Source of the DNA: Rhodopirellula halodulae
GTDB taxonomy: Bacteria; Planctomycetota; Planctomycetia; Pirellulales; Pirellulaceae
Reading direction: 5' to 3'
NCBI RefSeq assembly: GCF_020966775.1
Contig: NZ_JAJKFV010000002.1
Span: 124,001 to 188,000 of the forward strand
DNA length: 64,000 bases
The translations under genes were made by a program, and so were the position numbers. The notes under the pieces are model-generated. The model was not told the DNA's origin and ran no database searches. It saw only the letters and a list, made by a program, of their open reading frames with translations. This document shows, one piece after another, positions 16,840 through 47,595 of the stretch (its first letter is position 1; every line of letters begins with the position of its first letter).

Positions 16840-16858
16840 TCGTTTCTTCAACCGAACC

Positions 16859-17543: not shown

Positions 17544-17571
17544 TTAAAATTCTCGGCAAAGGAGAGCACCG

Positions 17572-18814: not shown

Positions 18815-18945
18815 AAAAAAACACGCACAATGAAGGAGCCCTAATAAGCTGTTGAGTGCTTCGACACTTGTGCCAAATCTTCGTTGAACTAAAATTGGCG
18901 GTGATACAAGCGATTTGACCTCAGCTTTTCATTTGCCAGCATTCC

Positions 18946-19803: not shown

Positions 19804-19857
19804 AACTAGAATGTGTTGCGTGATGGCGAAAATTCAGATTCCGTGTGCTAAGACCTT

Positions 19858-22112: not shown

Positions 22113-22177
22113 GAAATCAGTGCGTCCTGACCGTCGCCCATCAACCCATCTCGGCTTTGTTCTACCGGAACTGACGT

Positions 22178-23683: not shown

Positions 23684-23688
23684 AGCAT

Positions 23689-24612: not shown

Positions 24613-24620
24613 AGTAGCTC

Positions 24621-26003: not shown

Positions 26004-26092
26004 ACGCGGTTGCAGATTGGACTGTAGCGGTTGTGTGGAAGAAACGAAACGTTTTGACTCAGGACAGCGCTGGAAACTAGATACGATTCCAA

Positions 26093-26112
26093 TGTCTTCC
26101 CAAAGACGGCTC
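26093..26112 (+). repeat. First copy of a 20-base hairpin repeat
   Basis: tgtcttcccaaagacggctc matches 26265-26284 except for one base. Each copy can fold as gtctt...aagac. Its role is unknown. Confidence 0.45.
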
Positions 26113-26264
26113 AGCGAGCACCCAACTCGAAAAGTCTAATTGTCGCATCGCAAATTCGACACCTGTGTTTCAATGGATTGCAGTTCAATCATGCCCGGAG
26201 AACACCGTTAAATCCCGCCGAAGGCTATCTGCATCCACCTAAACCTGACTGGGAAACAGCCATG

Positions 26265-26284
26265 TGTCTTCGCAAAGACGGCTC
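26265..26284 (+). repeat. Second copy of a 20-base hairpin repeat
   Basis: tgtcttcgcaaagacggctc, 172 bases from the first copy, in the leader of the third sulfotransferase gene. Confidence 0.45.
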
Positions 26285-26478
26285 GGTAAAATCGCGCCGG
26301 CAACGACTCGATTTCAGGTTCCATTCTCGCATCTGGACGCAAAGCAACCGCGGCGATGAAGCCTTAATTTTCGTGGCTCGGTTTCCAGCAGGGATTCGAT
26401 CCGGGGAATGGCAGAAACGATTGAAATCCGACACGGGTGGCTTAACATGTCAGCTTCCAACTCACACCGCAGGTAAAC

Positions 26479-27330: not shown

Positions 27331-27373
27331 GTCACTCAATCTATCGCTCCAGGGGATACGCAGAACCGTCGCC

Positions 27374-28585: not shown

Positions 28586-28633
28586 AACGCTCACTCCGAA
28601 TTGCGGTTCCGCTATCGAAACTGCTGGCATCCG

Positions 28634-30211
28634 TCAATACGCGCCCTCTCGAAAGAGCATGGTTCGGATGGTTCGGAAGATGATGTAGGTGTCGAGCCAG
28701 GGGGACCAGTTGCAGACGTAGTAGCTGTCGAGACGGACTCTTTGTTCGTAGCTGGTGTCGTTGCGGCCGGAGACCTGCCAAAGACCTGTGATTCCTGGGC
28801 GGACCCGGAGGTAGAGAGGGTACATCTCTCGGTAGCGTCCAATCTCGTCTGCCACGATTGGACGGGGTCCCACCAGACTCATTTCGCCTTTGAGTGTATT
28901 CCACAATTGCGGGATCTCATCCAAGCTGGTCTTTCGTAGAAAGCGACCGATACCGGGGATGATTCGCGGATCGTTCTTCAGCTTCTGATCTTCGACCCAT
29001 TGGCGACGCATCTCCGGGTCTTGCTCGAGATATTGCTCGAGGACTTGATCTGCGTTAGTGACCATCGTACGAAACTTCCAGGCTTTGAACGTTTCGCCGC
29101 CAATTCCAATTCGTTTGTGACCGTAGAAAACCGGTCCAGGACTCTTGCGTTTGATGTAGACCGCAACGATCGCAAAGAGTGGCGAAAGTGCAATCAAAGC
29201 ACCTGCTGATGCAACCACGTCAACCGAGCGTTTTACAAAACGACTCACTGGACTACGAAGGTGGTCTTTCAGGTGAACCCCCATCACCCCGGCACATTCT
29301 CGTGTATTCGACCATAAACTTGGTAGGAGCACTTGAGACGGCAACACAAGTAAGTTGGGTACGTTCCCCGCATGCGACATGACTTCGTTCATGTCAATTT
29401 GCTCGCAGCCACCCGGTGCCACGATTGCCCAGCGGACCTGGAGCTTGCGACGAAGTCGGTCCAATCGTTGCACAGACCCTAAGTACGGGATTCCGTTGAG
29501 TTCTTCTGAATTGAGATCAGCAGTTTGCCGAGGAAAATCAACGATTCCAATCGGACGAAGTCCACGCTGCGGCACGCGACTGTAGAAGCGAAACAAAGCC
29601 CGCCCCTGAGGTCCCGCACCAACGATAATGGTGTTCTCGCCCCACCATGTTGTTTTGGAACAAAGCTTGCGGACAGTTAGCCGAACAATTGGCACTAAAA
29701 AGACAGCTACCAATATCCCAATTGAGCACAACAAAAATTCGCCGGTGCTCAAGGTGGCAAGCGTCATGTTGGCGAGCATTACAAATGCAAAGGAGGCAGC
29801 AGCGGCCAAAACAGTTTGCCGCAACTCCAAAACGGGACTGCTACCCGTCCCGGGGAAAAGTCCCAAAATTGCACCGGTGCCGAGATAACATGCAACAAGA
29901 CAAACTGCCTGCAAGAGCAATCCAGAATGCAGGCCCAACCATTCAAGCGTGAACAGAGGCAGAGCGGCGATCATCGCTGACAGCAGAAGAGATGTGACAT
30001 CACCCAGTACCAGGGGCATGCAGGTCATGAAGAGCTGCATGGTGCCGGTCGCTTGATTGCGAGGCGCGCGTCGTTTGCGTGGACTCGCGCTGCGACGCTG
30101 AGTCAACCGCTGGTCCTTGACCGCCGCGCTGGGGACGAAGGGGTCGAGTTGTTCGATCGTGTCTGTGCAAACGACACCGACCGGTAGCGGATTTGTGTCT
30201 AGCTGCGGCAT
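28634..30211 (-). CDS. WbaP-type undecaprenyl-phosphate sugar-1-phosphate transferase
   Basis: About 525 residues from ATG 30211; an in-frame TTG at 30238 is an alternative start. Four to five N-terminal membrane helices (about residues 70-185) precede a Rossmann-like CoA_binding_3 region ([17 protein letters not shown]). Another helix (about 325-345) then leads into the catalytic domain. That domain has [18 protein letters not shown], the [12 protein letters not shown] motif and [15 protein letters not shown]. The enzyme loads the first sugar phosphate onto undecaprenyl phosphate and so starts repeat-unit synthesis. It closes the polysaccharide locus and is convergent with the glycosyltransferase at 27374-28585. 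Confidence 0.95.
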
Positions 30212-30238
30212 CAATCGCGGACCAAGTTGAACAATCAA

Positions 30239-30829: not shown

Positions 30830-32584
30830 TCAGGCAGAAGCGGCGGAGTCGCAACTGGATGCGTCAGCGATTGGCAGCGAGGTTGCCGAGTCGTGATTGC
30901 TGAACGCCGGCATGTCGGCCACGCTTCTTGGGTACGTCGCGTGGTTCTTCGCGAAATCGATGCTGACGTCTAGAGCTTCCAGCATCTTGCGTGTCTGCAG
31001 ATCGAAGTGCAGGAAACTACCCATCACAGTGTGGGCATATTCAAACTTCGTCGGCCCCATCCACGCCGCTCTGGCAAAGTTTCGCAGATACAGATACCGG
31101 GTTCGTTTATCGCGAAGCATCCGCCAAGCAATCGTTCGAAAGCCCTTGAACATTCGCCGAAATTCCCAGCCATTGGGAACGTGCTTGTTGACGATTTTGA
31201 TTCGCGAGGCGGTGTCGATCACACGGTCCATGAAAGCCCGCGGCGAGTAGACATGCTCGATGATGTTGCGGAGCTCTTGGTAGATTTCCACTCGGTCACG
31301 CATCGTGACAAAGTTCATCCCGCTGATCGTTTGATCTTTCGATTCGGCGCTTCGCAGCTCGTAGTTTGCCGCGTCGTCTTGAATCCAGTTGTGTTCGGAG
31401 TCAATCAAACGACGTTCCTTCGCCAGACGCCGGGTGAGCTGCGTGTTGGGCAGCGCCGACAACAAGCCAACCATGGAAAGCGTGATGCCACTCTCTTGAA
31501 TGAACCGGATCATCGGCCCATCCGTGCCGGGTTTGTCCGTATCGAATCCGATGATCAACCCAGCGGCGACGGAAATCCCATGATCGTAGATCGTTCGAAC
31601 TCGTTCGATGATCGGGTGCACCGTATTGATTCGCTTTTGAGTGTGAATCAATGTCTCCTCATCGGGCGATTCAATCCCCAAAAAGACATAACGAAACTGC
31701 ACGTCTCGCATCAGTTCCAGTAGCTCTTTGTCATCCGCCAAGTTGATACTGGCTTCGGTGGAAAACACAAAAGGATAATTGTGTTCTTCGTTCCACTGCT
31801 TGAGTGCCACCAACAGCGGTTTGATCAGCTTGCGGTTGCCAATGAAATTGTCATCAGTGAAATCAACCCAACCTCGGTAGCCGAGATCGTAAAGCCGCTG
31901 TAGCTCGGCCAGAAACTGATCGGGCGTCTTCACGCGTGGTCGGCGGCCGAACAGCTCGATGATGTCGCAGAACTCACAGTTGTACGGACAGCCTCGCGAA
32001 GACTGGACGCCCACGTGCAGATAGTCATTGAAGTCGACGAGATCAAAACGAGGCGTCGGTGTTTGAGTGACATCGGGCTTGTGCGGCGATTCAAATTGCC
32101 CCTTGGGGTTCCCATCTCGCCATGCGTCGAGCCACATCGGAATGGTCAGTTCACCTTCGCCAACGATCACCGCGTCCGCGTCTTGATAGATCTGCGGCTG
32201 GCTCGTCGGATCCGGCCCCCCAACTACAATGAACTTGCCTTCCGCGTTGGCCCGCTGAACCCATTGCAAGATGCCGGGTTGCTGAGGCAGCATGCCGCCC
32301 GTGCAGACAACATCGGCCCATTGCCAATCCTCCTCGTTCACCTCGTCCACATTTTGATCCGCGAGGCGAAACTCCCATTGTTGAGGCAACAACGCGGCGA
32401 CCGTCATCAATCCCAACGGCGGAGCGGTCGCTTTGGCACCGATCGCTTTGGCACTTTCGACGAAGTTCCAGTAGTTCGTTTGTTCAAAACGCGGCTGAAT
32501 GAGAAGACAACGAACCGGAGCATCGGGGCTCTCAGGGAGCCGTGAAAAATCTGGCAAGCTGGACGGAGTGGGCGTCGTTTGCAT
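30830..32584 (-). CDS. B12-binding radical SAM protein (BchE/HpnJ-like, DUF4070 type)
   Basis: A 584-residue enzyme. An N-terminal cobalamin-binding Rossmann region (about residues 25-155, APPLGLMTVAALLPQ, VVGGPDPTSQP) lacks the DxHxxG base-off motif, as in many class members. The radical SAM core has the iron-sulfur triad SSRGCPYNCEFCD with Cys199, Cys203 and Cys206, then WVDFTDDNFIGN and FLGIESPDEETL. A C-terminal helical region (about 430-560) fits DUF4070. Such enzymes methylate or rearrange unactivated carbons, often in lipid, hopanoid or natural-product pathways. It is divergent from the megasynthase gene across 551 bases, which makes a shared pathway possible but unproven. Confidence 0.9.
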   Translation of the reverse strand: MQTTPTPSSLPDFSRLPESPDAPVRCLLIQPRFEQTNYWNFVESAKAIGAKATAPPLGLMTVAALLPQQWEFRLADQNVDEVNEEDWQWADVVCTGGMLPQQPGILQWVQRANAEGKFIVVGGPDPTSQPQIYQDADAVIVGEGELTIPMWLDAWRDGNPKGQFESPHKPDVTQTPTPRFDLVDFNDYLHVGVQSSRGCPYNCEFCDIIELFGRRPRVKTPDQFLAELQRLYDLGYRGWVDFTDDNFIGNRKLIKPLLVALKQWNEEHNYPFVFSTEASINLADDKELLELMRDVQFRYVFLGIESPDEETLIHTQKRINTVHPIIERVRTIYDHGISVAAGLIIGFDTDKPGTDGPMIRFIQESGITLSMVGLLSALPNTQLTRRLAKERRLIDSEHNWIQDDAANYELRSAESKDQTISGMNFVTMRDRVEIYQELRNIIEHVYSPRAFMDRVIDTASRIKIVNKHVPNGWEFRRMFKGFRTIAWRMLRDKRTRYLYLRNFARAAWMGPTKFEYAHTVMGSFLHFDLQTRKMLEALDVSIDFAKNHATYPRSVADMPAFSNHDSATSLPIADASSCDSAASA

Positions 32585-33135
32585 GATTGCGGTGTCAGCC
32601 AGGTGAGTGGATCAATTGCGTTGCCAAGCATGTTGTGCGGCCGCGTCCATCTCGTCCAATCCGCCCAGACACGACTCAGTCAACCTAGTCAGTCAGTGGG
32701 GGGTCACCAAATGAGAAACGCGGTTTTCACGTAATTTTTGCAATCTGACGGGCTGGACAGTTGGAAGCCGAAACACCCGACGAGCCCCCAACCACCGCAT
32801 TGCCGAAAGCTTGAATCATTCGATCAGTTTGATCGCAACGGGTTCAGTTTGCTCACAGCGGGCTAGCAAATTGCTTTACGCGTCCCAAGCAAGACCGGAT
32901 GCAAGTGTCCCACTGCGCCCGCCGGATTTTCGACTTCACCATTCAGACCGGTCGAAAGGACTCGGCGGGCACAATCCTTGCAACCCGGCCAAGTTGAACC
33001 AAGCGAATTCACTGCTTCGACATTCCCGCCTTTTTTGGCGTCACCGTTTGCACGGGGGGATCTGCAAATAAACTTGGGCGGTACGAAACATTTGTTCTTC
33101 ACCGATGCGGTGGCTGCAAAGCCGACCCAAAAACC
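32585..33135. other. Divergent promoter region of the megasynthase and radical SAM genes
   Basis: 551 bases between two divergent starts with no convincing gene. No operator or riboswitch could be identified. The length is enough for long leaders on both sides. Confidence 0.45.
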
Positions 33136-36100
33136 ATGCCCCACTCGCCTTCTCTCGGAATGCCATTGATCACAGGAGCCAGCGGCATGCTGGGCTCTTA
33201 CGTGATGGCGGAGATGCTACGTGCGGGCCGATTGTGTGCCGTCCTGGTGCGAGGCAAAGGCAAACAATCCGCATCGCAACGAGTGGATCACATCCTCAGC
33301 CGATACGAAACGGCTTGGCAAACAAAGCTCGTTCGTCCAACGATTTTGGAAGGAGATCTGCTGCAACCTGGTTTAGGCCTCAGCAACGAAGCCATCGACT
33401 GGGCCAGCCAAAATTGCGATCGAATTCTGCACAGCGCTGCCAGCTTGAGTTTTCTGCCGGCTGACCCCGAAGGCGACAACGAACCCTATCGCACCAACGT
33501 CGATGGGACTCGCGAGGTCATTGCGATGGCCCGCCGAATGGGACTCACCCAGTTTCATCACGTTTCCACCGCCTACGTCTGCGGCAAGCGATCGGGACGA
33601 GTCAAGGAGTCCGAAGGAGACGTCGGTCAATCGTTCGCCAATGACTACGAACGCAGCAAACTGATCGCCGAAGGAATTGTCCGCGAGGCCTTCACCGGTC
33701 GGGATCTAACCATCTACCGTCCTTCGATTGTGATTGACCGCACGGGTTTGTCGCCGGTGTCCGGTGATCGCACGATCTACGGTGCGTTCTCGATGTATCA
33801 AATGCTGGCGTCTCGATTTGGTCTGCCGAGCGACGGTCAATGGTTTCGCGATTTGGGTTTTGCCGGCAATGAATGCAAGAACATTGTCGATGTGGATTGG
33901 ATTGCCCGTGCGATTTGCAAGATCATCAGCACGCCACGTCTGCACGGTCGGACTTACCACCTGACGACTCGCGACGGCAGCTCCATCGAATCGTTGGACG
34001 CCGCATTCCACACAGCCACAACGCAGTGGCTGGCCACCCGCAAGCCAGATCGAGTGTCTGCGTCACGGCCATCCAACTCCGACCGAAGTGCGTCTCCATC
34101 GCAAACTCGAAAAGAGCTGGATCAGATGGCCGATCCGTTTGTCAAAACGTTCTTGCCGTATTTCCGCGACGACCCAACCTTTGATCGTGAAAACATCGAC
34201 GACGTGATCGCAACGACGCATCTGGATGACACTCCGGCCATTGGCACCGAGGAGTTGTTGCAGATGATCAGCAATTGGACGGCTCCCACGACGAAGCAAC
34301 CCACCGGGAAGAAGCGCTCGGCAAGGACAGCTGACTCCGCCGCCGAAGGCGACAAGCGAACTTCCGTTGCCCGATCGCCAGAAGCCGCCATCTCAGAAGG
34401 CAATCCAAACGATTGTGTCATTTGCGGGTTTGAAGTTCGGCTCCCCGGAGGCGTCGATAACGCTCGGGCTTTTGAAGAAATGCTGTTCGATGGGCGGTCC
34501 GTCATCGCCCCGATGCCGAGCGACCGTTTGGATCGCGAACTGTACTTCGATTCCAAACGCGGAGTGCCAGGCAAGACCTACACTCAGCTCGGTGGATGCG
34601 TCTCGCCCGCGCCACTGGATCCCGATGTCGAGCGTCAAATTGAGTCTTTGGGCACGTTTGACTTGACCCATCGGCAATTCGCTCAGGTGGCGGTCGCGGC
34701 GATGAAGTCAGCGGCGGCCGCGAACCAATCGTTCTCGTTTGATCCAATGCGAGCCGGTGTGTTTGTCGGACATAGCGGTGGCACCGAACTTGGTGGCCCG
34801 CTAGCGATGGCGACGATGGCTGATTCCGCGATGGAATTGGTCGAGCAAACTTCCAACGTTCAAGCGTTGGATGCTGGCACGCGAGAGGGACTGAAACGGT
34901 CCGTCGCCAACGCCATTCGCCAAGATCGCCCACGTCATCAAGCCAACCATCTCCCGGAGTTCAACGCGTACTCCGCCGCATCGTTGGCCGCCAGGATGCT
35001 CGGCTTCCAAGGTCGACGCGAAGTCATTGATGCGGCTTGTTCCTCGTCACTGTTGGCGTTGCAACATGCCGCCTCGGCGATTGAAGCCGACCGAATTGAT
35101 CTCGCGGTGGTTGGCGGAGCAACATTCAACAACGTCGACAACTTGGCTTTGTTCTCGCAATCGGGCGCGTGCAGTGAGACGGGCTCTTACCCGTTTGACA
35201 ATCGAGCCAGCGGGCTGATTAGCAGCGAAGGGTACGTCGCGGTGGTGATCGCGCGGCGCAGCGTCGCCGAAGCGAACCAGATGCCGATCTTGGCCACACT
35301 GCGTGGGGTTGGTGTTGCTTCCGACGGAAAAGGCAAGGGCCTGTGGGCGCCCCGCAGCGCAGGCCAGCAAACGGCGATGCAACGTGCCGTTGACTCGCAA
35401 CCACTCAACATTGATTACTTGGAGTGTCATGCCACCAGCACGCAGGTCGGTGATGCGACGGAGCTTGAAAGCCTGACTCAATTGCTGGCCGGAAAGAGCG
35501 GCAACGGCCCACTTCCCATCGGCAGTGTGAAGAGCAATCTGGGGCACCTGTTGGAAGCGGCTGGTTTGGTCGGCGTTGCGAAGTGCCTGCTGGCAATCCA
35601 ACGCGGTGAAATTCCACCGTCCATCAATTTCTCACAGCCGACCGAACGACACGACTGGCAAAATTCGCCGGTACGAATTGTTGACCGCGTGGAACCCTGG
35701 ACACAACGGACTTCATCGCGTGGAAAAGTCGCCGCGGTCAACGCATTTGGCATCGGTGGCTTGAACGCTCACGCGGTGATTGAAGAAAAGCCGTCCACAA
35801 CATTGAATTCCCGCACAACAGCTAGTTCGCGAGAAGCCGAGCCGATCGCAATCGTTGGTCGCGGTGTGGTGCTTCCGGACGCGCCGAACTTGGATGCATT
35901 CCGCGAATTGTTGACTTCGAGTCGTTCCGCGATCAGTGATCCTCCGCCCGGTCGATGGATGCAGCGTGCGGCGGACGGAGCCTGGATTGGTGTCACCAAT
36001 CGCTCACAGTACGGCGAGATTGGTTACAGCACACCGCATTGCCGTGGCGGCTACATTCGCGACTTCAAGTTTGACGCCCAGTCCTATCGCATTCCGCCCA

Positions 36101-39100
36101 AGATGGTGGCCAACGCCAATCCGGCTCAACTGATGCTGATCGAAGCCGTTCGACAAGCGATGGATGAGTTCGATGGCGGCCAATGGTCCGTCGATCGGCA
36201 AAAAGTCGGTGTCGTTGTCGGAACGATCTTTGGTGGCCAATTCAGCAACGAATTGCAGGTTGGTTTGCGTCTGCCAGAGATCACTCGGTTGGTCACGCGG
36301 CAACTGCGGGAATTGGGTTGGTCCGACCTCCAAGCCCAGGCGACCGCCGACGAATTGCGTCAAGTCACGCTCGACAAATACGGTGCTTTGCTTGACGAAA
36401 CCGGCGGGTTCACCGCCAGCACACTGGCATCACGGATTGCGCGCACATTCGATTTGATGGGCGGTGCTTTCGCGGTCGATGCTGACGAAGCCTCCGGCGG
36501 TCTCGCGCTGATCACCGCGATGGAACAACTGCATGCCGGCAAAATGGACTTGGCCATTTGCGGCGTCACTCAGCGCGGCATGGACTTGGTCGCGTTCGAA
36601 CAGTTGGCTCGCAAGAATCAGCTCCTCACCACCGGGCATCCCCAAGATCTTCCGCACGATGGATCGCAGATCATCCCGGGTGAAGGCGTTGCCGTGTTGA
36701 CCCTTCAACGCCTCAGCGATGCGAAAGCCAACGGCCGTAAGATTCTCGGAATTCTCACCAAACCTACCGAGAGCTTCACGAGCGATGTTCGGGGCGCGCG
36801 TGCCGCAGCGGCTCAGGATTCCGAAAGAAATCAAATAATTTCCGCACGAAAACTGGTGGGACAAATCGGCCACTTGGGCGGTGGTCAGGGCATCGTTCGA
36901 ACAATAGCGGCAACATTGTCGCCTTCCTTCGGTTCCGCAGCAGCACCTCACGAAGCGATACGCATCCACGAAGTTGCCGACGACGGCTATCAAGTGAATT
37001 ATAGTGTCGCCCCCCAGATGAACTATGAGTCTGCATCCTTGTCTTCTGATGAGTCAACTTTGATTTCGCCATCAACCGCTTTGGAATCCCGAGCCGAATC
37101 GACTCCTTCGCCGAACTTTCGCGAAAACGTCGTGGCGGCCACATCGCCGGAATCGGGAGACTGCATCACAACTCGGATTCAGTGCTTTTCCTTCGAGGCA
37201 TTGCAAACGGCTCTTCGCCAAATCGCGGAAGGCGTCACGCCAAACGATTCTGTCGTTGAGCAATTCGACTCCTTCGCCCACCGATGCTATCGAGCCGTCT
37301 TGCTGGGTGACAACCAACCGGAAATCGCGTCCGCCGCATCAGCAGCACTCAGCGGCCCCATCCGAGAACGAAAATCAGGTGGCTTGGTTCGTCATGATGG
37401 CTGGGTTTGGATGCCGTCCTCTCGCCCGAGCGAACTCCTGCCCCGCGCGGCTTGGTTGTTCCCCGGACAAGGTTCGCAATACGCGGAGGCCCCGGCTTGG
37501 CTGAAGTCCGACGATGCCGAGGCGAGCCGAGCATTCTTGCAGTCGTTTGATGGTGAGCTGCAAGCCATGGGATTGCCCGCGGTTTCGGATCGCCTGCATG
37601 ATCCTGATCAGCAACTCGGTCGTGATGTCTGGTGGACTCAAGCGTGGGTGTTGGCCGTTGGGTCAATGTTCTCCGATGCATTGCTGCGATCTGGACTGCG
37701 TCCTGACGTTGTTTTGGGTCACAGCTTTGGCGAATGCACGGCAGCATGGTGCGCCGGCGTCGTACCGACTCGCCAAGCCATCGAGTTTGCCAAGTCGCGA
37801 AGTGATAGCGTCGTGATGACGACTCGCGAACGAGGGGAATTGCTCTCGGTTCGTGGCGCACCTTCCCAAGTCGATGCGGCACTCCTGTCGAGCGACATCC
37901 GATACACGATTTCGCATCACAATTCGCGTCAGCAAACGGTCATCGCCGGTTCGCCTGACCAAATGCGTGCTGCGAAGGAGACGTTGGCCTCCGCGGGCAT
38001 GGCGTCGGTCGTGATTCCCGTTCCCGCTGCATTCCACACTCCCGAGATGATGCCCGCGCAGGAGATGCTGCGCGCTCGATTCACCGGTCAAAACGCTCGA
38101 CCACCTCGCTTCGCATTTTTGTCCGCAGTCTCCAATCGCTACTTGGCTGAACCCGCGGACATTGTCGACAACCTAGTCACCCAATTGACGCGTCCCGTTT
38201 GCTTCAGCGGTGCGGTGGAACGATTGGCTCATGATGGTTGTGAATTGATGGTCGAGGTTGGCCCGAACAATGTCCTCACACGACTGGCGGGCTCCACCGT
38301 TGAACCGCACGTGCTGTGCTTGTCGGCTGATGAACGCGGACGCACCCCACATCGCCAATTGAAGCTTTTGAAGCTGGCCTACGAAGCTTTGGGACAAACA
38401 CTGGATCAGTCCGTATCGCCGTCGATGCCCACTTCACCGGCGAGTCGACCTCGGCATTCGCAAAATGGCCATGTCGCCATGCAAAACGGGCATGCCACCA
38501 GCGTACCTGTCAGCGCGGCCACGACCTTGCAAACGCAACAACAACCGACATTTGAGGTGGTCGACGTCACTCGCCGCAGCCGACGACAAGCGGACCAATG
38601 TGCCGATCCGCAAAACGACGCAAGCAACATGAATTCCATGTTGGCAACACCAGTCAGCAGCAATGGTTCGGCATCGCAGGCTACGATCGATTCACCGATT
38701 GCGCCCCCTTCGCCGGCGACCGTGGCTCCGACCAAGGCTGCGAACGCGATGGCGTCACCAGCTTCCACGGCAACCGATCTTCAACGTATGCAATCAGCTC
38801 GATCCTTCTTGTTCGATTTGGTGGTCGATCTGACGGGTTACGATCCGGAAGTCATCGAATTTGATGCGGACCTGGAAGCGGAGCTTGGCGTCGACAGCAT
38901 CAAAAAGGCTCAACTGATCGGCGAGATTGTGCAGTGGGGCAACTTGGAGGTGGATACGCAATCCATGCGTCTGGCTCAGTTCGCTTCGCTGAACGACATT
39001 TTGCAGTTGGTCGGTGATCCCTCATCCATTGAGAACGCACCGGAACCTTCCACCGCGTACTCGAACCAGGCGTCGCCTGGAACAGAAGAATTGCCACTAC

Positions 39101-41973
39101 CAGAAAGCGGGTCTGATCTGGCGGACTCGCTGAAGCGATTGATGATTGATCTGGTCGTTGACCAAACCGGTTACGACGAAGACATCATCGACATGGACGC
39201 GGATCTGGAAGCCGAACTGGGAATTGACAGCATCAAGCGGGCTCAGCTGCTGGGCGAGCTGGAGCAACAGTACGAACTGCAATCGCTCCGCCAATCCAAC
39301 TTGAAACTGTCGGACTTCCCCACGTTGTCTTCGATCCACACGTTTGTGATGGACCAAATCGAAGGGCGGGAACCATCCAGCGAAAAAAAAAACGCCTCGC
39401 TGAACGAACGCCCCACCGCTGAATCAGGCGAACAGGACGCTCCCGCCACGGGCACTCATCGATTTGTGATGCGAACCCGAAAGGCCAATCGCCGTGACGG
39501 AATGCCAACATCGCCGAACCTCAACGGTGCGGCATTGATTCTGGGCGACAACGACGTTGCGGATTCTTTGGCGCGACGATGTCTTGAGCAAGGCGTTGAG
39601 GTCTATCATCTGAATCGCCCATCATCGATGGAAGCTTTGGATGCGGAGCTGGATCGGATTTGGCAGATCGAGCCGACTCCGCATTTGTTCCTGACCACAC
39701 CGCATGACGCCGGTGCGTGTTGGTCCACGTTCGATGTGGAATCATGGCGTCAACGGCACGCCGATGCATTGGCCACTCCCTATCGCGTTTGCCAGCGTTG
39801 GATGCAGCACATGATCGATGACGACCGAATGAGTCAATCGTCGCTGGTCACCACACTGAAACTGGGCGGCGAATTCGGCTTCGACGCGATGACATCGGCG
39901 GCTCAGTCGAACGTCGCCATTCACAGTCGGTCCGCAGAGTCGGGTGGTTTGGCCGGTCTGACCAAAGCGATGCTGATCGAAGCTTGGATGCGAGGCTTCC
40001 GAGACACACCGATGCTGGTCGTGGAAGGCATCGATGGTTCCTCCGCCGACGAAATAGCCGATGGCGTCTTTCGCGAATTGGCCGTGCCTTCGTATGACGA
40101 AGAAGTCGCTGTCCAAGGTCAAGAACGTATTGCGACGCGAGCCGTTTACCAACCGTTGGACATTTCATCACAACAGACACCACGGCTGACTCGGGGCGGC
40201 AATTGGGTTGTTGCTGGTGGCGGTCGCGGCATCACGGCGATGACCGCCATGGAGCTCGCTCAGCGTCACGATTTGAAGCTGCACCTGCTTGGCATGGCTC
40301 CCGTTCCGCAAATCGATGCGGAGATGCGTGCCCATGCCAAGCGTGATCGGGCGGATCTTCGTCGCGTGGTGATGGCGCGCATCCAAAAAGAAGGTGGCAA
40401 CCCGGTTAAAACTTGGCGTCAGCTCGAAAAGGCGATCGAAATCGACCTGACGTTGGAAGAGTGCCGCGAACGATCGATTCAGGCCACTTATCACAGTGTG
40501 AATGTCTCCGACGCCGAAGCTGTCCAAGCCGCGTTGTCAAAGATCCGTTCGACCGACGGCCCGATTCGCGGCGTGATCCAGGGTGCAGGTTCAGGACAAG
40601 ACGCACGCTTCGATCGCAAGCGTCCAGATAAGGTCGCTCAGTGCTTCAGTGCCAAAGTCGACGGCACCATTTCGCTTGCCGCCGCGACACAGAACGATCC
40701 ATTGGAATGGTTCATCGGCTACGGTTCGATTAGCGGACGTTTTGGCGCCAACGGGCACACCGATTATTCGGCCGCCAATGACATGCTTGCCAAGCTGATC
40801 GGGCGACTGCGCCAGCAACGGCCACAAACCCGTTGCGTGACTTTTCATTGGCACGCTTGGGGTGATGTCGGCATGGCAACCAAACCCGAAGCCAAATTGG
40901 CGCTCGACATGATCGGCATGGAATTCATGCCGGCGGAAGAAGGCCTGCAGCATTTCCTTCGCGAAGTGGAACATGGTGGGAACGAAGCTGAGGTCCTGAT
41001 CACGGACCGACGTTATGTCCGGAAGTTCTTTCCGTCGGAGTCTTCACGCTGGATCGAGTCTCCCGATCGTCCTTCCCCGATGCTTGATCCGACCGAGCGG
41101 ATGGACGACTCAAACCCAGAAACTTTCGCAGTCACGCTTCATCCTCAGAACGATTTGTTTCTAAAAGATCACTTGGTGGTGGGACGGCCAACGCTGCCTT
41201 TCGTGATGGCGATTGAAATGCTGGCCGAGGCCGCCCGTTGGAACTCTTCACAGCAAGTCACTCGATGTCGCGATGTGGTGGCATCCATGCCTCTCAAATT
41301 TGCGACGGACGATCCGTTGGCAATTGAGATTCTGAAAAGCGATGCCAGTTCATCCGACCGCTGGTCCTTGGTCAGTGACCTTCGCCGAAAAGATGGCCGA
41401 TTGGTTCAGTCACGGCGTCAACATTTCTCGGCAGCGTTTGATTTGGGATCGCCAACCACCAAACGCGGTTCGATTGAAGTTGCACGGGTTGAAGAGTTGC
41501 CCGTTCCCTACGTCGACGAAACCGCGCCGGTCTATCATGGGCCATCGCTTCAGTGCTTGAGAAGCATTGGCTTCCTGAACGTTGCCGGCAGTGCCACCGC
41601 AACGTCCACCGACAAACCAGTGGCCGTCGGCACCATCGTCGCACCGAGCCCAGCACACCTTGCTGGCGAATCTCGACCGCTGATGGGATGGGTTCTGTCG
41701 CCCGCAACGATGGATGCGGTGCTTTACGCTGCGGGAATGCTCGCCTACCGAGTGGGCGGCAACCCCAGCCTGCCGATTTCTTTCGACACCATCGACTTTG
41801 GCCGACTGCCTGATCCTGGCGAACCGCTCCGAGTCCAGGTTCGATGGGAAGAAGACATTCCTGGCAAAGGTCCGGAATCCGCAGCGGGCGGACGATTGTC
41901 GGCGTTGCTTCTGGGGCAAAACCAAGACGTGATTTTGCAGTTGCATGGATACCGAGTTGGTTGGTTGCGTTAG
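33136..41973 (+). CDS. Multidomain PUFA-synthase-like polyketide synthase with N-terminal thioester reductase
   Basis: A 2945-residue iterative type I synthase. Order: NAD(P)-dependent thioester reductase (about 5-380; ITGASGMLGSYV, Thr145, Tyr171, Lys175); ketosynthase (about 425-880; DAACSSSL with Cys635, His765, His804); second KS-like domain (about 902-1320) with Glu1118 in place of the cysteine and without the first histidine block, so a chain-length-factor type; acyltransferase (about 1438-1760; FPGQGSQY, GHSFGE with Ser1530); two acyl carrier domains of PUFA-synthase type (LGVDSIKK Ser1921, LGIDSIKR Ser2032); ketoreductase (about 2355-2610; AGGGRGI, Tyr2544); C-terminal hotdog-type dehydratase region (about 2660-2945; FLKDH with His2679). 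No enoyl reductase is present. It should build a long, partly reduced acyl chain and release it reductively. Two bases separate it from the Rieske gene. Confidence 0.93.
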   Translation: MPHSPSLGMPLITGASGMLGSYVMAEMLRAGRLCAVLVRGKGKQSASQRVDHILSRYETAWQTKLVRPTILEGDLLQPGLGLSNEAIDWASQNCDRILHSAASLSFLPADPEGDNEPYRTNVDGTREVIAMARRMGLTQFHHVSTAYVCGKRSGRVKESEGDVGQSFANDYERSKLIAEGIVREAFTGRDLTIYRPSIVIDRTGLSPVSGDRTIYGAFSMYQMLASRFGLPSDGQWFRDLGFAGNECKNIVDVDWIARAICKIISTPRLHGRTYHLTTRDGSSIESLDAAFHTATTQWLATRKPDRVSASRPSNSDRSASPSQTRKELDQMADPFVKTFLPYFRDDPTFDRENIDDVIATTHLDDTPAIGTEELLQMISNWTAPTTKQPTGKKRSARTADSAAEGDKRTSVARSPEAAISEGNPNDCVICGFEVRLPGGVDNARAFEEMLFDGRSVIAPMPSDRLDRELYFDSKRGVPGKTYTQLGGCVSPAPLDPDVERQIESLGTFDLTHRQFAQVAVAAMKSAAAANQSFSFDPMRAGVFVGHSGGTELGGPLAMATMADSAMELVEQTSNVQALDAGTREGLKRSVANAIRQDRPRHQANHLPEFNAYSAASLAARMLGFQGRREVIDAACSSSLLALQHAASAIEADRIDLAVVGGATFNNVDNLALFSQSGACSETGSYPFDNRASGLISSEGYVAVVIARRSVAEANQMPILATLRGVGVASDGKGKGLWAPRSAGQQTAMQRAVDSQPLNIDYLECHATSTQVGDATELESLTQLLAGKSGNGPLPIGSVKSNLGHLLEAAGLVGVAKCLLAIQRGEIPPSINFSQPTERHDWQNSPVRIVDRVEPWTQRTSSRGKVAAVNAFGIGGLNAHAVIEEKPSTTLNSRTTASSREAEPIAIVGRGVVLPDAPNLDAFRELLTSSRSAISDPPPGRWMQRAADGAWIGVTNRSQYGEIGYSTPHCRGGYIRDFKFDAQSYRIPPKMVANANPAQLMLIEAVRQAMDEFDGGQWSVDRQKVGVVVGTIFGGQFSNELQVGLRLPEITRLVTRQLRELGWSDLQAQATADELRQVTLDKYGALLDETGGFTASTLASRIARTFDLMGGAFAVDADEASGGLALITAMEQLHAGKMDLAICGVTQRGMDLVAFEQLARKNQLLTTGHPQDLPHDGSQIIPGEGVAVLTLQRLSDAKANGRKILGILTKPTESFTSDVRGARAAAAQDSERNQIISARKLVGQIGHLGGGQGIVRTIAATLSPSFGSAAAPHEAIRIHEVADDGYQVNYSVAPQMNYESASLSSDESTLISPSTALESRAESTPSPNFRENVVAATSPESGDCITTRIQCFSFEALQTALRQIAEGVTPNDSVVEQFDSFAHRCYRAVLLGDNQPEIASAASAALSGPIRERKSGGLVRHDGWVWMPSSRPSELLPRAAWLFPGQGSQYAEAPAWLKSDDAEASRAFLQSFDGELQAMGLPAVSDRLHDPDQQLGRDVWWTQAWVLAVGSMFSDALLRSGLRPDVVLGHSFGECTAAWCAGVVPTRQAIEFAKSRSDSVVMTTRERGELLSVRGAPSQVDAALLSSDIRYTISHHNSRQQTVIAGSPDQMRAAKETLASAGMASVVIPVPAAFHTPEMMPAQEMLRARFTGQNARPPRFAFLSAVSNRYLAEPADIVDNLVTQLTRPVCFSGAVERLAHDGCELMVEVGPNNVLTRLAGSTVEPHVLCLSADERGRTPHRQLKLLKLAYEALGQTLDQSVSPSMPTSPASRPRHSQNGHVAMQNGHATSVPVSAATTLQTQQQPTFEVVDVTRRSRRQADQCADPQNDASNMNSMLATPVSSNGSASQATIDSPIAPPSPATVAPTKAANAMASPASTATDLQRMQSARSFLFDLVVDLTGYDPEVIEFDADLEAELGVDSIKKAQLIGEIVQWGNLEVDTQSMRLAQFASLNDILQLVGDPSSIENAPEPSTAYSNQASPGTEELPLPESGSDLADSLKRLMIDLVVDQTGYDEDIIDMDADLEAELGIDSIKRAQLLGELEQQYELQSLRQSNLKLSDFPTLSSIHTFVMDQIEGREPSSEKKNASLNERPTAESGEQDAPATGTHRFVMRTRKANRRDGMPTSPNLNGAALILGDNDVADSLARRCLEQGVEVYHLNRPSSMEALDAELDRIWQIEPTPHLFLTTPHDAGACWSTFDVESWRQRHADALATPYRVCQRWMQHMIDDDRMSQSSLVTTLKLGGEFGFDAMTSAAQSNVAIHSRSAESGGLAGLTKAMLIEAWMRGFRDTPMLVVEGIDGSSADEIADGVFRELAVPSYDEEVAVQGQERIATRAVYQPLDISSQQTPRLTRGGNWVVAGGGRGITAMTAMELAQRHDLKLHLLGMAPVPQIDAEMRAHAKRDRADLRRVVMARIQKEGGNPVKTWRQLEKAIEIDLTLEECRERSIQATYHSVNVSDAEAVQAALSKIRSTDGPIRGVIQGAGSGQDARFDRKRPDKVAQCFSAKVDGTISLAAATQNDPLEWFIGYGSISGRFGANGHTDYSAANDMLAKLIGRLRQQRPQTRCVTFHWHAWGDVGMATKPEAKLALDMIGMEFMPAEEGLQHFLREVEHGGNEAEVLITDRRYVRKFFPSESSRWIESPDRPSPMLDPTERMDDSNPETFAVTLHPQNDLFLKDHLVVGRPTLPFVMAIEMLAEAARWNSSQQVTRCRDVVASMPLKFATDDPLAIEILKSDASSSDRWSLVSDLRRKDGRLVQSRRQHFSAAFDLGSPTTKRGSIEVARVEELPVPYVDETAPVYHGPSLQCLRSIGFLNVAGSATATSTDKPVAVGTIVAPSPAHLAGESRPLMGWVLSPATMDAVLYAAGMLAYRVGGNPSLPISFDTIDFGRLPDPGEPLRVQVRWEEDIPGKGPESAAGGRLSALLLGQNQDVILQLHGYRVGWLR

Positions 41974-41975
41974 AG

Positions 41976-43148
41976 ATGTATCACGCGACGACCTCCCTTC
42001 CAGCGATTCTGCCATCGCAGTGGTACACCGACGCTGACTTCAATCGGCGTGAGCGGACGGCGTTACGTCGCGACGGATGGCAACTGGTGGCCGCCGCGTC
42101 TCAACTGGCAAATTCAGGCGACTACGTCGCGATGGACTGCCTCGGGCTCCCACTGGTCGTCCGCAACCACGACGGTGAACTGGTCGCATTTCAAAACGTC
42201 TGTGCCCACCGGCAATGCCAACTCGTCCCAAAGGGACAGGGCACATCGGAAGAATTAAGATGTCCGTACCACGGCTGGCGTTACGGGGCTGATGGCCGAA
42301 CACGAAAGATCCCCGAAGCAAAGAACTTCCCTTACTTTGACCGTGAAAAGCACCGCTTGACCGGCTATCCGGTTCACCAAATTGGTCAATTGGTTTTCGT
42401 AGATCTCGCTGTCGACAAGAGGTCCGACGAACCAAGTGATCCGCAGATGTCTTGGCCCGCACCATGGCTGAGCGAACTGGCCGCCCGAACCAATTCAGAT
42501 GACTGGCAATTGGTTCTGTCGGATGAGTTGAGTTACCCGTGCGACTGGAAGATTCCCATCGAAGGATCGCTCGAAAGTTATCACCTCAGCGAAGTGCATT
42601 CTGAAACATTCGGAACAGACCCGGGCGAAAACGCGAGCACGCATGAATTGCTTCCCTGGGGAACTCGCTTCGCAACCGACGCCCGGGAGGACTCTTTCTT
42701 GGCCAGAATCGAGGAACGTGTGATGAAGTACTTGGTCGGCAATTTTGGCCCTGAATACCACCATGTGCACGCGTTTCCAAATATCATGGCATCGTTCACC
42801 GACACCATGAGTTTGGTCTACCAAATCACCCCGGTGGTCGATTGCGCAACCGATGGCCAAAGCGGCGGAACTCCCCAAAGCAAAATGAAAGTGTTCGGAT
42901 TTACGCGAAAGTCCAAGCGCAGCGGTCCCGTTGGAAGATTGCTTTCGCGAGGACTTGGTCGGAGCGCGGCTTCCATGGCACAAAAGGTCTTGGCAGAAGA
43001 CGCGGCGATTTTCCCCAAGGTTCAAGCGGGGATGAACGCCGCTGTGAGTCACCATCGCCAAACACCCGAAAGAATCTTTGGACGTTGCGAAGAACGTCTG
43101 CACGCGTTTCACGTGCATTGGAACCAACAAATGAAACGTCACGGATAA
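41976..43148 (+). CDS. Rieske non-heme iron oxygenase, large-subunit type
   Basis: A 390-residue protein starting 2 bases after the megasynthase stop; the longer frame back to 41844 lies inside that gene. The Rieske [2Fe-2S] site has Cys76/His78 (NVCAHRQCQL) and Cys96/His99 (LRCPYHGWRYG). The catalytic domain has the mononuclear iron region EGSLESYHLSEVH. It resembles ring-hydroxylating and choline/carnitine-type monooxygenases. Because of the tight operon with the synthase and an SDR, it probably hydroxylates or desaturates the synthase product. Its reductase is not adjacent; the ferredoxin-NADP reductase gene at 49243 is a conceivable but unproven electron source. Confidence 0.92.
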   Translation: MYHATTSLPAILPSQWYTDADFNRRERTALRRDGWQLVAAASQLANSGDYVAMDCLGLPLVVRNHDGELVAFQNVCAHRQCQLVPKGQGTSEELRCPYHGWRYGADGRTRKIPEAKNFPYFDREKHRLTGYPVHQIGQLVFVDLAVDKRSDEPSDPQMSWPAPWLSELAARTNSDDWQLVLSDELSYPCDWKIPIEGSLESYHLSEVHSETFGTDPGENASTHELLPWGTRFATDAREDSFLARIEERVMKYLVGNFGPEYHHVHAFPNIMASFTDTMSLVYQITPVVDCATDGQSGGTPQSKMKVFGFTRKSKRSGPVGRLLSRGLGRSAASMAQKVLAEDAAIFPKVQAGMNAAVSHHRQTPERIFGRCEERLHAFHVHWNQQMKRHG

Positions 43149-43164
43149 GGACAGGACGGCAATC

Positions 43165-43959
43165 ATGCAGAGTGACTCCTATCAAACGAATGCAACGTTG
43201 GACCTACTTGGAAAACGAGCCTTGGTCACGGGAGCAAGCCGTGGCATCGGCAAAGCCATCGCTCTCGAACTCGCTTCACGCGGTGCGTCGGTCGCGATCA
43301 ACTTTTTGAAGTCAGAAGAGCAAGCCGTCCAAGTCGCGACGGAGGTTTCCAACCTCGGTCGAAACGTCATGCTCGTGCGGGCCGATGTGTCTTCGAAAGA
43401 CGATGTCACCGCGATGGTGGACACGGTTGCCGACAAATGGGGTGGACTGGACATCGTGGTCAGCAACGCCGCCGCCGGTGGCTTTCGCGATCTGAACGAT
43501 CTCACGCCGGTCAACTTCGAAGCTGTTTTGCGCAGCAACTCCGCTCCCGTGGTTTGGCTCGCGCAAGCGGCTTGGCCTCATTTGGCCAAGGGTGACGATC
43601 ACGGCAAACTGGTCGCGGTGAGCAGCCACGGATCCAACTGGGCGGTCCCGCACTACGGTGCCATCGGCGCTTCCAAAGCGGCGCTCGAAGCCTTGGTCCG
43701 TCATCTTGCATTGGAACTGGGCGACCATGGGATCAACTTCAATTGCGTCTTGCCTGGCATCATCGCAACGGAAGCAATCGCCAGCATGCCTGGATCGGAA
43801 GGTTTGATCGAAGCCGCGACCGAACGCATGATGGTCGGGCAACGACGCCTGTGCGAACAAGATGTCTCTTCCGTGGTGGCGTTTTTGAGCGGACCAGGCA
43901 GTGACCTCATTCAAGGCCAAACGATCGTCGTCGACGGCGGAGTCAGCATTCGCGTCTAA
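43165..43959 (+). CDS. FabL-like short-chain dehydrogenase/reductase
   Basis: A 264-residue classical SDR with a good ribosome-binding site (aagg/agga at 43147-43156). NADP site VTGASRGIGKAIA. The segment SNAAAGGFRDLNDL, SSHGSNWAVPHYGAIGASKA and the final SDLIQGQTIVVDGGVSIRV follow enoyl-ACP reductase FabL more closely than FabG. Because the megasynthase lacks an enoyl reductase domain, this enzyme could act in trans to saturate intermediates, or it could reduce a released carbonyl. It is the third gene of the operon, 16 bases after the Rieske gene. Confidence 0.9.
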   Translation: MQSDSYQTNATLDLLGKRALVTGASRGIGKAIALELASRGASVAINFLKSEEQAVQVATEVSNLGRNVMLVRADVSSKDDVTAMVDTVADKWGGLDIVVSNAAAGGFRDLNDLTPVNFEAVLRSNSAPVVWLAQAAWPHLAKGDDHGKLVAVSSHGSNWAVPHYGAIGASKAALEALVRHLALELGDHGINFNCVLPGIIATEAIASMPGSEGLIEAATERMMVGQRRLCEQDVSSVVAFLSGPGSDLIQGQTIVVDGGVSIRV

Positions 43960-44062: not shown

Positions 44063-45355
44063 ATGGTAGATCCCCTGATGCTTCGCCGAGGTACCATCGC
44101 TTTGGCGGTAGTTCTGATCGGCATGATTGGATGGCAAGTCGCGAAAACGGCTCCTGGTTCGTTGCCCGGCGAGACTTCGGACAAGGTCGCAAAAGAGACA
44201 CCCGAACTGAGCCTGGGCAGCTTCGCACAGCCGGTCCGGCCTTCGCGAGCCGAAGGCGAAAGTGAGTCGTCGCGCGACTTGACGCTGCGAGTTGGCCAGA
44301 TTGGCTCCGCCCCGCGCCGCGACGAGTTGATGACGTTGCGAGCACTCCCAGAATCCGAACGCGACTGGATGCGGGCATACAGCAACGCCAAAGGTCACGC
44401 TTGTCGTGTGCTGACGCCGGGTGCCTCGGTCTCGTCGTCGTTTTCGCGAGTGCGTCCCGGACAACATGGCGAACTCGGTCGTCCGTCAGCGATCACGATT
44501 GGACTGGAGATGGCCAACGAAGGCCGCCAGAAGCTTCCGGCGGTGACCCGCCAACAGGTGCTTAAGTATTTCGAGGACCATCGTCTCTCCGTCCAACCCA
44601 ACTTGTATTACGACGAAGAAGGTCGGGTCTACTTTGGCACTGACTGCGCCGCCGCGTTCTATGAAATCGAACGCCCTGGCTACACGATTGAACCGGAACC
44701 CATGATCAATGTCGCGGTCAGCCGTTTCCGAACGCTGGGTTTGATGGGCACACCTGATGACTCGGGCGTGGTAATCGGACGCACCTTGGCAATGATGTTC
44801 GCGTTTGAAAAGAGTGACGCGACGGTGTCGGGCGTTGCCGATAGTGGTCGCCAGGCGCTGGAGCTGATGCTGCTTCATCTGCCGCAGGATTCCACCGCAG
44901 ATGACTTCGAATTGGAGGTCTACATCACCAGTGAAGAACGCACGAACTTGCATCGTCTGGATTTGGGTAACCAGGCGGTGAACTCACCATTGCCAACGAT
45001 CTCCTCCGAGGTTCGATTTGACAAGATGATTTTGATGGGCATGTACCCCGCGGAACCCGTGGTCACCAAGATCCATTTTCGTTCGGCAGGCATCCTATCG
45101 ATGGAAATGATCAAACGTTTGACACGAGGTACCAGTGACCGAACGGCGATGAGCCTGACCGAGATCCTGGACGAGTTTGGCAAGTTGTCTCTGGAAGCGC
45201 CCGTCAATTCGACGCCGAAGTACGAGGACGCGGAAGTCGCGGAGGCGGCACGACGCAAGTACGAACGATTGCGTGCGATGCGTGAAGAGATTTCTCGCGA
45301 CGACGCGATTTTAGATTCCCCCAAGCGAGCGATGATGACCGGCTTGGACGACTGA
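44063..45355 (+). CDS. Hypothetical membrane-anchored protein
   Basis: A 430-residue protein from ATG 44063; the in-frame start at 43901 lies inside the SDR gene. One N-terminal membrane helix (GTIALAVVLIGMIGWQVA) is followed by a low-complexity linker and then a large, probably periplasmic region (about residues 90-430) with mixed alpha/beta sequence and an acidic, helical end. No known domain was recognised. It follows the synthase operon by 103 bases on the same strand, so a link to that pathway is only positional. A terminator lies just downstream. Confidence 0.75.
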   Translation: MVDPLMLRRGTIALAVVLIGMIGWQVAKTAPGSLPGETSDKVAKETPELSLGSFAQPVRPSRAEGESESSRDLTLRVGQIGSAPRRDELMTLRALPESERDWMRAYSNAKGHACRVLTPGASVSSSFSRVRPGQHGELGRPSAITIGLEMANEGRQKLPAVTRQQVLKYFEDHRLSVQPNLYYDEEGRVYFGTDCAAAFYEIERPGYTIEPEPMINVAVSRFRTLGLMGTPDDSGVVIGRTLAMMFAFEKSDATVSGVADSGRQALELMLLHLPQDSTADDFELEVYITSEERTNLHRLDLGNQAVNSPLPTISSEVRFDKMILMGMYPAEPVVTKIHFRSAGILSMEMIKRLTRGTSDRTAMSLTEILDEFGKLSLEAPVNSTPKYEDAEVAEAARRKYERLRAMREEISRDDAILDSPKRAMMTGLDD

Positions 45356-46122: not shown

Positions 46123-47595
46123 TTAAGATACGTCGGCCAAAATCTTCTTCGCAGTTCGCTCCGCCGCCGCGATGACGGGTGCGATCCCCACACCGCCCAG
46201 TGCATTCGTGTTCAGATGCAATCCGGTGAATGGCTCCAACGCGGAACGGATCGTTTCGACCTTTTCCAAGTGCCCAACCTCGTACTGAGGCATCGCCTGA
46301 TTCCACCGAACCACGCGGATCACCGACGCAAGCTCGTCAATTGACAAGGCTTGGTCGAGCCCAATCAGATCCCCCAGTTCCTTTCGCACCACGGAAACAA
46401 TTTCGTCGTCGCTGCGCTGCAGGATTTCAGGTTGCAAGACACCACCGACAAACGCCCGGATGATGACGTGATCGTCCGGTGCCCGCTGCGGGAATTTGGT
46501 GCTAGCAAAGCTGCCCGCCAAAACGTGACGCTGTTCCTTTGGCGGCACGACAAAACCAAACGTATCCGGCAACCGTTCAACATATTCTTTCCGCACAGCC
46601 ATCACCACGATGGCGGTCGAGGCAAAGGGAATGCTGCGAAGTGTTTCCGATGCCTTTTCGCTCCAAGACTGAACCAAACCTGCCGCCACGTGCGCCGGCG
46701 TTGAGATCACGACTTGATCGAACTCCGACGAATCTTCCAAGCCTGGCGATGCACCGGAATCGATGTTCACTCGATAACGCCCATTGTCGGCCTGTTCGAT
46801 CGACAGCACTGATGTTTGCAGTCGAATACTCTCACGACCGATGAAGTCAGCGAGTGTATCCATCCACTGCTTCATGCCCTCTGGAAAGGCGCGAAACTTT
46901 TCGTAGCGAGCCCCGCTGCTGGCTTGTTCGGTGGAGTCCTCTCCAGATCGAACGCGGCGGATGGTCGCCTTTGCCAATGATCCGTCTTGCGACTCCATGT
47001 CCCACAGTGGCTTCATCGTCGCCGCCATGCTCAACCGATCCACGTCCGCGGTGTAGATCCCAGCCACCAACGGCGCCACGATGTTATCCAAGCACTCGGG
47101 TCCCAACCTTCGCCGGACAAACGCGCCCACACTTTCGTCAGCAACGCTGTTGTCTCGAGGCGGTATCAAACGCTCGCGAAGCAAACGCAACTTTCCTGGC
47201 CAACTCAACAAAGGCGTTGTGATCATCGACCAAAGCCGGGTTGGTCGCATCAAGACAAACCCTTCGGGAATGGGGACCAACTGGTCGCCCGTCGCAATCA
47301 TGGCGCCACGACCGTTGGGATTGGGGCGCAGCAGCTGATCCGCGACTCCCAACTGCTCACACAATTCGATGGCTGCGGGTGGCGCGGTGGCGAACATGTC
47401 GGCACCGTGATCGATGACGAACCGATTGCCAGCCTCATCCGTCACGGTTTCGGTATGGATGACTCCGCCGAGTCGATCGGCTGCTTCAAATAGCGTGACG
47501 TTGGGCTGCGGCTTGCCTTGTTTCTTTGCCAACAAACGCAGGTGAGCGGCGGTCGACAATCCCGACAAACCACCACCAATGATCGCAATGTTCAT
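46123..47595 (-). CDS. hemY: Protoporphyrinogen oxidase (HemY type)
   Basis: A 490-residue FAD enzyme of the monoamine oxidase/protoporphyrinogen oxidase group. The dinucleotide-binding N-terminus is NIAIIGGGLSGLSTAAHL, followed by the FAD-contact region EAADRLGGVIHTE and the C-terminal FAD motif GVGIAPVIAAAERTA. It oxidises protoporphyrinogen IX to protoporphyrin IX with oxygen, the penultimate step of haem synthesis. Length is normal for the family. The SHD1-type protein gene lies 13 bases upstream on the same strand, so it may be transcribed from the same promoter. Confidence 0.94.
   Translation of the reverse strand: MNIAIIGGGLSGLSTAAHLRLLAKKQGKPQPNVTLFEAADRLGGVIHTETVTDEAGNRFVIDHGADMFATAPPAAIELCEQLGVADQLLRPNPNGRGAMIATGDQLVPIPEGFVLMRPTRLWSMITTPLLSWPGKLRLLRERLIPPRDNSVADESVGAFVRRRLGPECLDNIVAPLVAGIYTADVDRLSMAATMKPLWDMESQDGSLAKATIRRVRSGEDSTEQASSGARYEKFRAFPEGMKQWMDTLADFIGRESIRLQTSVLSIEQADNGRYRVNIDSGASPGLEDSSEFDQVVISTPAHVAAGLVQSWSEKASETLRSIPFASTAIVVMAVRKEYVERLPDTFGFVVPPKEQRHVLAGSFASTKFPQRAPDDHVIIRAFVGGVLQPEILQRSDDEIVSVVRKELGDLIGLDQALSIDELASVIRVVRWNQAMPQYEVGHLEKVETIRSALEPFTGLHLNTNALGGVGIAPVIAAAERTAKKILADVS

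Follow-up and report, generated by a model that had tools for sequence, protein, structure and literature searches.

In the 64,000-nucleotide stretch of DNA from the marine planctomycete Rhodopirellula halodulae that we analyzed (the window), we found a Pfa/Hgl kind of system in which FabL-type enoyl reduction appears to take the place of the PfaD type. Judging from its sequence, we lean, with some reserve, toward a secondary-lipid synthase that works iteratively and releases its chain by reduction; the product would be a fatty aldehyde or alcohol, long and largely saturated, which may be esterified in many relatives. A first-pass annotation had described a 2945-residue multidomain protein with two downstream genes, at gaps of 2 and 16 bases, for a Rieske oxygenase and a FabL-like SDR. 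The frame at 33136-41973 indeed encodes 2945 amino acids, and ORF calls together with Pfam give the order thioester reductase (TR), ketosynthase (KS), chain-length factor (CLF), acyltransferase (AT), two acyl carrier proteins (ACPs), ketoreductase (KR), and dehydratase (DH). The ORF coordinates, the Pfam domain boundaries, and relatives with the same order bear out the description of the protein, as do the ORF starts that of the two downstream genes (Table 1).

Table 1. Features of the synthase locus and its flanks, in window coordinates.
Feature	Position	Strand	Details
Divergent B12-binding/DUF4070 radical SAM protein	30830..32584	-	PF04055, PF02310; CxxxCxxC present
Divergent intergenic region, radical SAM gene to synthase	32585..33135	.	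551 bases
Thioester reductase (TR) domain	33169..33915	+	residues 12-260; Pfam PF07993 (NAD_binding_4), 157 bits; Y171/K175 catalytic pair
Ketosynthase (KS)	34414..35820	+	residues 427-895; Cys635, His765, His804; Pfam ketoacyl-synt
KS-like chain-length factor (CLF)	35833..37335	+	residues about 900-1400; Glu1118 replaces catalytic Cys; second ketoacyl-synt stretch
Acyltransferase (AT)	37453..38304	+	residues 1440-1723; Pfam PF00698, 100 bits; Ser1530/His1634
Two ACP domains	38788..39330	+	two PP-binding stretches; LGVDSIK/LGIDSIK motifs at residues 1917 and 2028
Ketoreductase, structural and catalytic halves	39418..40965	+	Pfam KR, 106 bits (2356-2576); Tyr2544
PKS-type double-hotdog dehydratase	41077..41955	+	PF21089 and PF14765; His2679, Asp2860
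Rieske non-haem iron oxygenase	41976..43148	+	PF00355 (Rieske), PF00848 (Ring_hydroxyl_A)
FabL-like SDR, proposed trans enoyl-ACP reductase	43165..43959	+	264 aa; Pfam adh_short_C2; ATG 16 bases past Rieske stop
ORF484 family	44063..45355	+	N-terminal helix resembling a membrane anchor, then beta-rich domain; start and export predicted

The two ketoacyl-synt stretches of the synthase together reach 225 bits in Pfam. The dehydratase matches are weak (PKS_DH_N, 35 bits; PS-DH, 27 bits; residues 2648-2940), and they are the only dehydratase families that Pfam recognizes in the protein, the FabA-type (PfaC) dehydratase/isomerase giving no match. The hotdog DH assigned earlier is retained as a hotdog but refined to the PKS-type double hotdog. 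The best NCBIfam match of the whole protein is TIGR02813 PfaA, at 554.2 bits against a curated cut-off of 1010.1, and the TR likewise stays below the cut-off of its NCBIfam thioester-reductase subfamily (108 versus 213 bits). Because full-length relatives are 44-73% identical (tblastn) and have the identical domain order, the architecture is not a product of chance. With tandem DSIK-type ACPs, a KS paired with a Cys-less CLF, an AT, and a KR, the protein belongs to the secondary lipid synthases in the broad sense.

The catalytic residues were compared in domain matches above 60 bits from the window and the first-fetched loci; L125, L126, and L159-L163 lie outside these counts. Both TR residues, Y171 and K175, are kept in 26/26 rows, as are the KS catalytic Cys and both of its His. 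At the corresponding Cys position, the CLF carries Glu (16 rows), Asp (8), Ala (1), or Ser (1), and Cys in none of the 26, as expected of a chain-length factor. AT Ser and His (25/25), KR Tyr (30/30), and the DH His and Asp2860 (24/24 each) are equally constant. Thus, the residues across relatives and the Pfam matches support a secondary-lipid-type synthase with a KS, a Cys-less CLF, and a reductive release domain.

The count of relatives comprises 34 loci, namely the window, another 15 in which the TR is fused (L029, L030, L031, L032, L035, L037, L038, L039, L041, L085, L087, L088, L089, L125, and L126), and 18 non-fused ones (L043, L090-L094, L096-L102, and L159-L163). Excluded were L086 (with a contig as long as that of L031 and therefore taken to be one genome with it), L114 (which duplicates the position of L126), L095 (flanking sequence), L042 and L044 (where nothing but the Rieske gene matched), and L119 and L120 (partial synthase stretches). 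The TR is visible as a separate gene in 15 of the 18 non-fused loci; the L092 and L162 sequences break off at the end of a contig, and the part of L160 that was fetched has no visible TR. With a quick method and the root on the long-branched L102, the 28 rows of a KS-CLF tree divide at a single branch (SH-aLRT 100) into the 16 fused rows and 12 non-fused ones, the latter including L092, where the TR is not visible, and two from L102. The TR lies just 5' of the KS on the same strand in L090, L091, L093, L094, L096, and L101, which is the arrangement that a fusion would need. On these comparisons of sequences, the one-polypeptide form is a fusion confined to one lineage. The first-pass annotation had set it against systems whose activities are spread over several proteins; one protein is indeed present here, but its distinctiveness was overstated, since the fusion belongs to one lineage and both Type R and alphaproteobacterial synthases are single proteins. 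The single polypeptide was accordingly rejected as the key novelty, the TR being separate in most non-fused loci and single-protein synthases being already known. In Rhodopirellula europaea 6C (L030, 9932-18765), the synthase occupies two overlapping frames, through either a draft error or a real break. The window genome also holds two other giant KS-bearing frames, of 3737 aa (G000:C29:1531772) and 2510 aa (G000:C11:192200).

By sequence matching, the combination of TR, KS-CLF-AT-ACPn-KR-DH, and SDR recurs in two planctomycete orders. An ACP-KR-DH query matched 84 of 296 genomes of the order at E<=1e-40, some of them through frames of other sizes (three candidates scored per genome). A KS-CLF-AT query matched 7 of 294 genomes of the phylum at E<=1e-90, the window's own included (two candidates scored per genome). 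Four of these seven belong to another order of the class: two have a TR and an SDR beside the synthase, one an SDR only, and one is cut by the contig. Strains carrying the locus include Rhodopirellula europaea 6C, Neorhodopirellula pilleata, and Rubripirellula obstinata.

The SDR is present at 33 of the 34 loci; a contig end truncates the exception, L162. Among solved structures, it is closest to the FabL-type enoyl-ACP reductase 3oic (158 bits), with the runner-up at 126 bits, a gap of 33 bits. The enoyl-reductase spacing Y164-x6-K171 is found in 27/27 rows, and the FabG Tyr position is occupied by Ile (24), Val (2), or Leu (1). The name FabL is taken from NCBIfam NF005975, whose cut-off of 328 bits the SDR misses at 232.5, so that it is a FabL-type enoyl reductase by motif and not a certified FabL. 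The same shortfall would suit a second ketoreductase or an aldehyde reductase, which would leave double bonds or hydroxyls in the chain and yield a polyene or polyol, and the two tandem full KR domains of L096, L101, L102, and L163 also point in that direction. We consider this reading unlikely in view of the invariant Tyr-x6-Lys, the lead of FabL among solved matches, and the failure to find an NMO-type enoyl reductase at the loci. For the latter, tblastn with PfaD-type queries, which had no positive control at these loci, gave no match in the window, in the loci searched, or in L159-L164. Elsewhere in the genome, there are two short NMO-family matches (36 and 34 bits; family cut-off 28), so another NMO-type enzyme may exist. 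The role of trans enoyl reductase proposed by the first-pass annotation for the SDR is thus well supported by its conserved motif and its closest solved relative. The window genome has 13 SDR paralogues, six of which were read for the catalytic motif. One of these (L150) shares the Y-x6-K spacing, and from its motif, we take it to be FabI-like; another (L139) has Tyr and Lys in the same columns together with one more Tyr, spaced as in FabG.

Although the open frame of the Rieske gene extends back to 41844, its likely start is the ATG at 41976, 2 bases past the synthase stop. His247 and His252 of the His-x4-His iron site and Glu244 are invariant in 22/22 rows, as are both Cys ligands of the cluster, while the two cluster His are present in 21/22; the exception is the L093 copy at 6392, which is either misaligned or devoid of them. 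With carnitine monooxygenase as the closest structure solved (73.5 bits) and Glu244 invariant, any action of the enzyme on the acyl chain is no more than a guess. The gene is optional, occurring at 21 of the 34 loci (12/16 fused and 9/18 non-fused; the fused loci without it are L031, L087, L125, and L126). With two changes and long branches, the Rieske tree is compatible with either a single origin or separate origins of the linked genes. Two Rieske genes lie at one locus in both L093 (1821-3284 and 6392-7588) and L099 (11042-12469 and 15697-16836).

A further partner, overlooked by the first-pass annotation, is a Condensation/PapA/WS-DGAT-type acyltransferase, which is encoded at 18 of the 34 loci (16 plus L125 and L126). 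It lies immediately 3' of the SDR in 14 of these 18 (L029, L031, L039, L041, L085, L087, L088, L089, L091-L094, L125, and L126) and elsewhere in the stretch in L090, L099, L100, and L101; it is also found beside the synthase pieces in G026 (L119) and G037 (L120). The gene is absent from the window locus, L032, L035, L037, and L038, and the queries used gave no match in L159-L163; the L030 stretch ends too early to be scored. Members are 15-40% identical to the first member, and HHxxxD is invariant in the 15 aligned, L099, which lacks the first His, being outside the alignment. At E<=1, Pfam gave weak matches of these 15 to Condensation (12) and WS_DGAT_cat (10), and a predicted model (pLDDT 80.4) resembles condensation domains, TRI3, and PapA5. 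The linked acyltransferase thus appears to have the fold and the HHxxxD motif in common with PapA5 and WS/DGAT. The nearest homologue in the window genome is about 450 kb away and adjoins a PIG-L gene; in that stretch (L113, 9767-13930), it stands beside PIG-L and PQQ-repeat genes, and similar-sized neighbours are seen in G002 and G004.

From the domains, catalytic residues, and gene association that can be read in the DNA, we infer the reactions, chain length, saturation, esterification, hydroxylation, and release as alcohol or aldehyde as follows. The AT would load malonyl groups onto the two ACPs, and the KS with its inactive CLF partner would extend the chain iteratively. Each beta-carbon would be processed by the KR and the PKS-type DH, and the separate FabL-type SDR would reduce the enoyl-ACP in trans; the chain should therefore be largely saturated. 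Using NAD(P)H, the TR would then free the chain in the form of an aldehyde or alcohol. Where present, the Rieske oxygenase may oxidize the chain or the released product, and the acyltransferase, at the 18 loci that have it (the window's is not among them), may form an ester on the alcohol or on a chain hydroxyl.

Instead of leading to an alcohol or ester, the aldehyde formed by the TR might be an intermediate toward an amine, a hydrocarbon, or a coupling product. The zeamine genes zmn10-14, in the sections of PMC3547906 that describe them, likewise encode a thioester reductase and a stand-alone SDR of the ketoreductase type along with a PUFA-type synthase; as an analogy, they may serve as a precedent for a TR working with a PUFA-type synthase. 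In those same sections, however, the Zmn system has a PfaD fused to an aminotransferase as well as NRPS partners, whereas we saw no aminotransferase among the neighbours scanned with Pfam. Moreover, the linkage of the acyltransferase favors an alcohol at the loci concerned, and we regard an onward-processed aldehyde as quite improbable.

Among described systems, the hgl synthases of cyanobacteria (Type F) appear to be the nearest functional analogue of the synthase with reductive release. According to the relevant parts of PMC11804610 and Table 1 of PMC3098273, they use KS, CLF, AT, ACP, KR, DH, and thioester reductase to make a long chain diol, and the planctomycete loci have the same association of a thioester reductase with the KS-CLF-AT-ACP-KR set. 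They differ in that the hgl activities are distributed over several proteins and accompanied by the glycosyltransferase HglT, whereas the planctomycete loci have a fused or neighbouring TR, the FabL-like SDR, and often linked Rieske and acyltransferase genes. By this analogy, the alcohol could be glycosylated and exported as a glycolipid or lipid anchor tied to the neighbouring exopolysaccharide genes; in section 11 of PMC11804610, the authors relate the hgl islands to 1,3-diols and conjugates with sugars. At 15-30 kb, the window encodes glycosyltransferases, a MATE flippase, sulfotransferases, Wzy_C, and WbaP; WbaP-like genes lie near L030, L039, L095 (G036), and L164 (G115), Wzy_C-like genes are common to L090, L093, and L094, and Poly_export and Wzz stand beside the G006/G008 loci. 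Nevertheless, the nearby polysaccharide genes vary from locus to locus, and with part of the neighbours profiled, we recognized neither a glycosyltransferase nor an ABC exporter among the families common to many loci; we therefore hold such a glycolipid pathway to be doubtful. The exopolysaccharide-type set of the window (15280-30238), with a Wzy_C ligase and a pyruvyl transferase, contains an ISL3-family transposase at 17572-18801.

The Pfa/PUFA synthases share with the window locus tandem ACPs, a KR, and the KS-CLF-AT order of fused pfaBC. In contrast to them, the window locus has a TR, lacks a PfaD-type NMO and a FabA-type DH/isomerase, and stays below the PfaA cut-off. Shulse and Allen (2011), in the portions of PMC3098273 concerned, distinguish 20 secondary-lipid types, name planctomycetes in types I and J, the latter with a pfaD enoyl reductase, and describe Type R as one KS-MAT-CLF-ACP-KR protein; "Rhodopirellula," "thioester reductase," and "Rieske" have no occurrence in the main text. 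The plasmid-borne synthases of the Alphaproteobacteria Beijerinckia indica (a Type P organism in that part of PMC3098273), Methylosinus sp. C49, and Rhodobacteraceae SC52 are also single polypeptides with KS-AT-ACP-KR, the KS being 30-32% identical (the SC52 ACP is recognized by blastp only). Unlike the planctomycete synthases, they have an N-terminal NMO domain in place of the TR and one KS with no CLF, and the genes beside them carry annotations of the 3-oxoacyl-ACP synthase III type or TauD. We found no description of a planctomycete secondary lipid or PUFA synthase, or of a Rhodopirellula PKS with a Rieske enzyme, in the open-licence literature, and the system does not appear in the accessible parts of PMC13190842, PMC10896814, PMC12078418, PMC13291983, and PMC10351704.

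The first-pass annotation had also passed over the radical SAM gene and ORF484, and both are left unexplained by the favored reading of a reductively releasing synthase. In the radical SAM protein, the radical SAM and B12-binding domains are both present (Pfam), and C199, C203, and C206 are invariant in 11 rows. A homologue at least 45% identical occurs in 10/14 synthase-bearing versus 0/26 synthase-lacking relatives, counted over 40 relatives including the window genome, with the synthase called at E<=1e-60 and uncorrected for kinship; in six of the 40, the best match is only a weaker paralogue (35-43%). Among 18 chosen synthase-bearing genomes, in which G026 and G036 recur, nine have a homologue at 45-83%. 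The gene was rejected as an invariant partner, as G006 and G008 carry the synthase without it. The ORF484 family is present at the window and 13 other loci, plus L125 and L126; its predicted model (mean pLDDT 71.5) had no PDB match at E<=0.001. In G115 (L164, 13959-16543), genes for homologues of the radical SAM protein (54%) and ORF484 (24%) adjoin each other at a distance of about 17 kb from those of the synthase, with a WbaP homologue nearby, an adjacency that fits one pathway. The locus might accordingly make an undescribed lipid class, a saturated long-chain alcohol oxidized by the Rieske enzyme, C-methylated or cross-linked by the B12 radical SAM protein, and set into the envelope with ORF484 as a membrane-anchored component, although we deem this full scheme improbable. 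The PPOX, SHD1-like, and FNR genes at 46-50 kb were rejected as parts of the system, being present only in the four nearest relatives fetched, and a role of the FNR as reductase of the Rieske enzyme is hypothetical; the protoporphyrinogen oxidase-like protein (46123-47595, minus strand) scores above the TIGR00562 cut-off.

Together, these data describe a type of synthase that recurs among planctomycetes, has reductive release built in, and appears to use a FabL-type reductase in place of PfaD. According to the consulted part of a 2025 review (PMC12078418), a type III PKS has so far been the subject of the only targeted study that set out from a gene cluster predicted in planctomycetes. The lipid of this locus can be tested in the named strains that carry it, and natural variation among loci in the presence of the Rieske, radical SAM, and acyltransferase genes offers a ready comparison of products.
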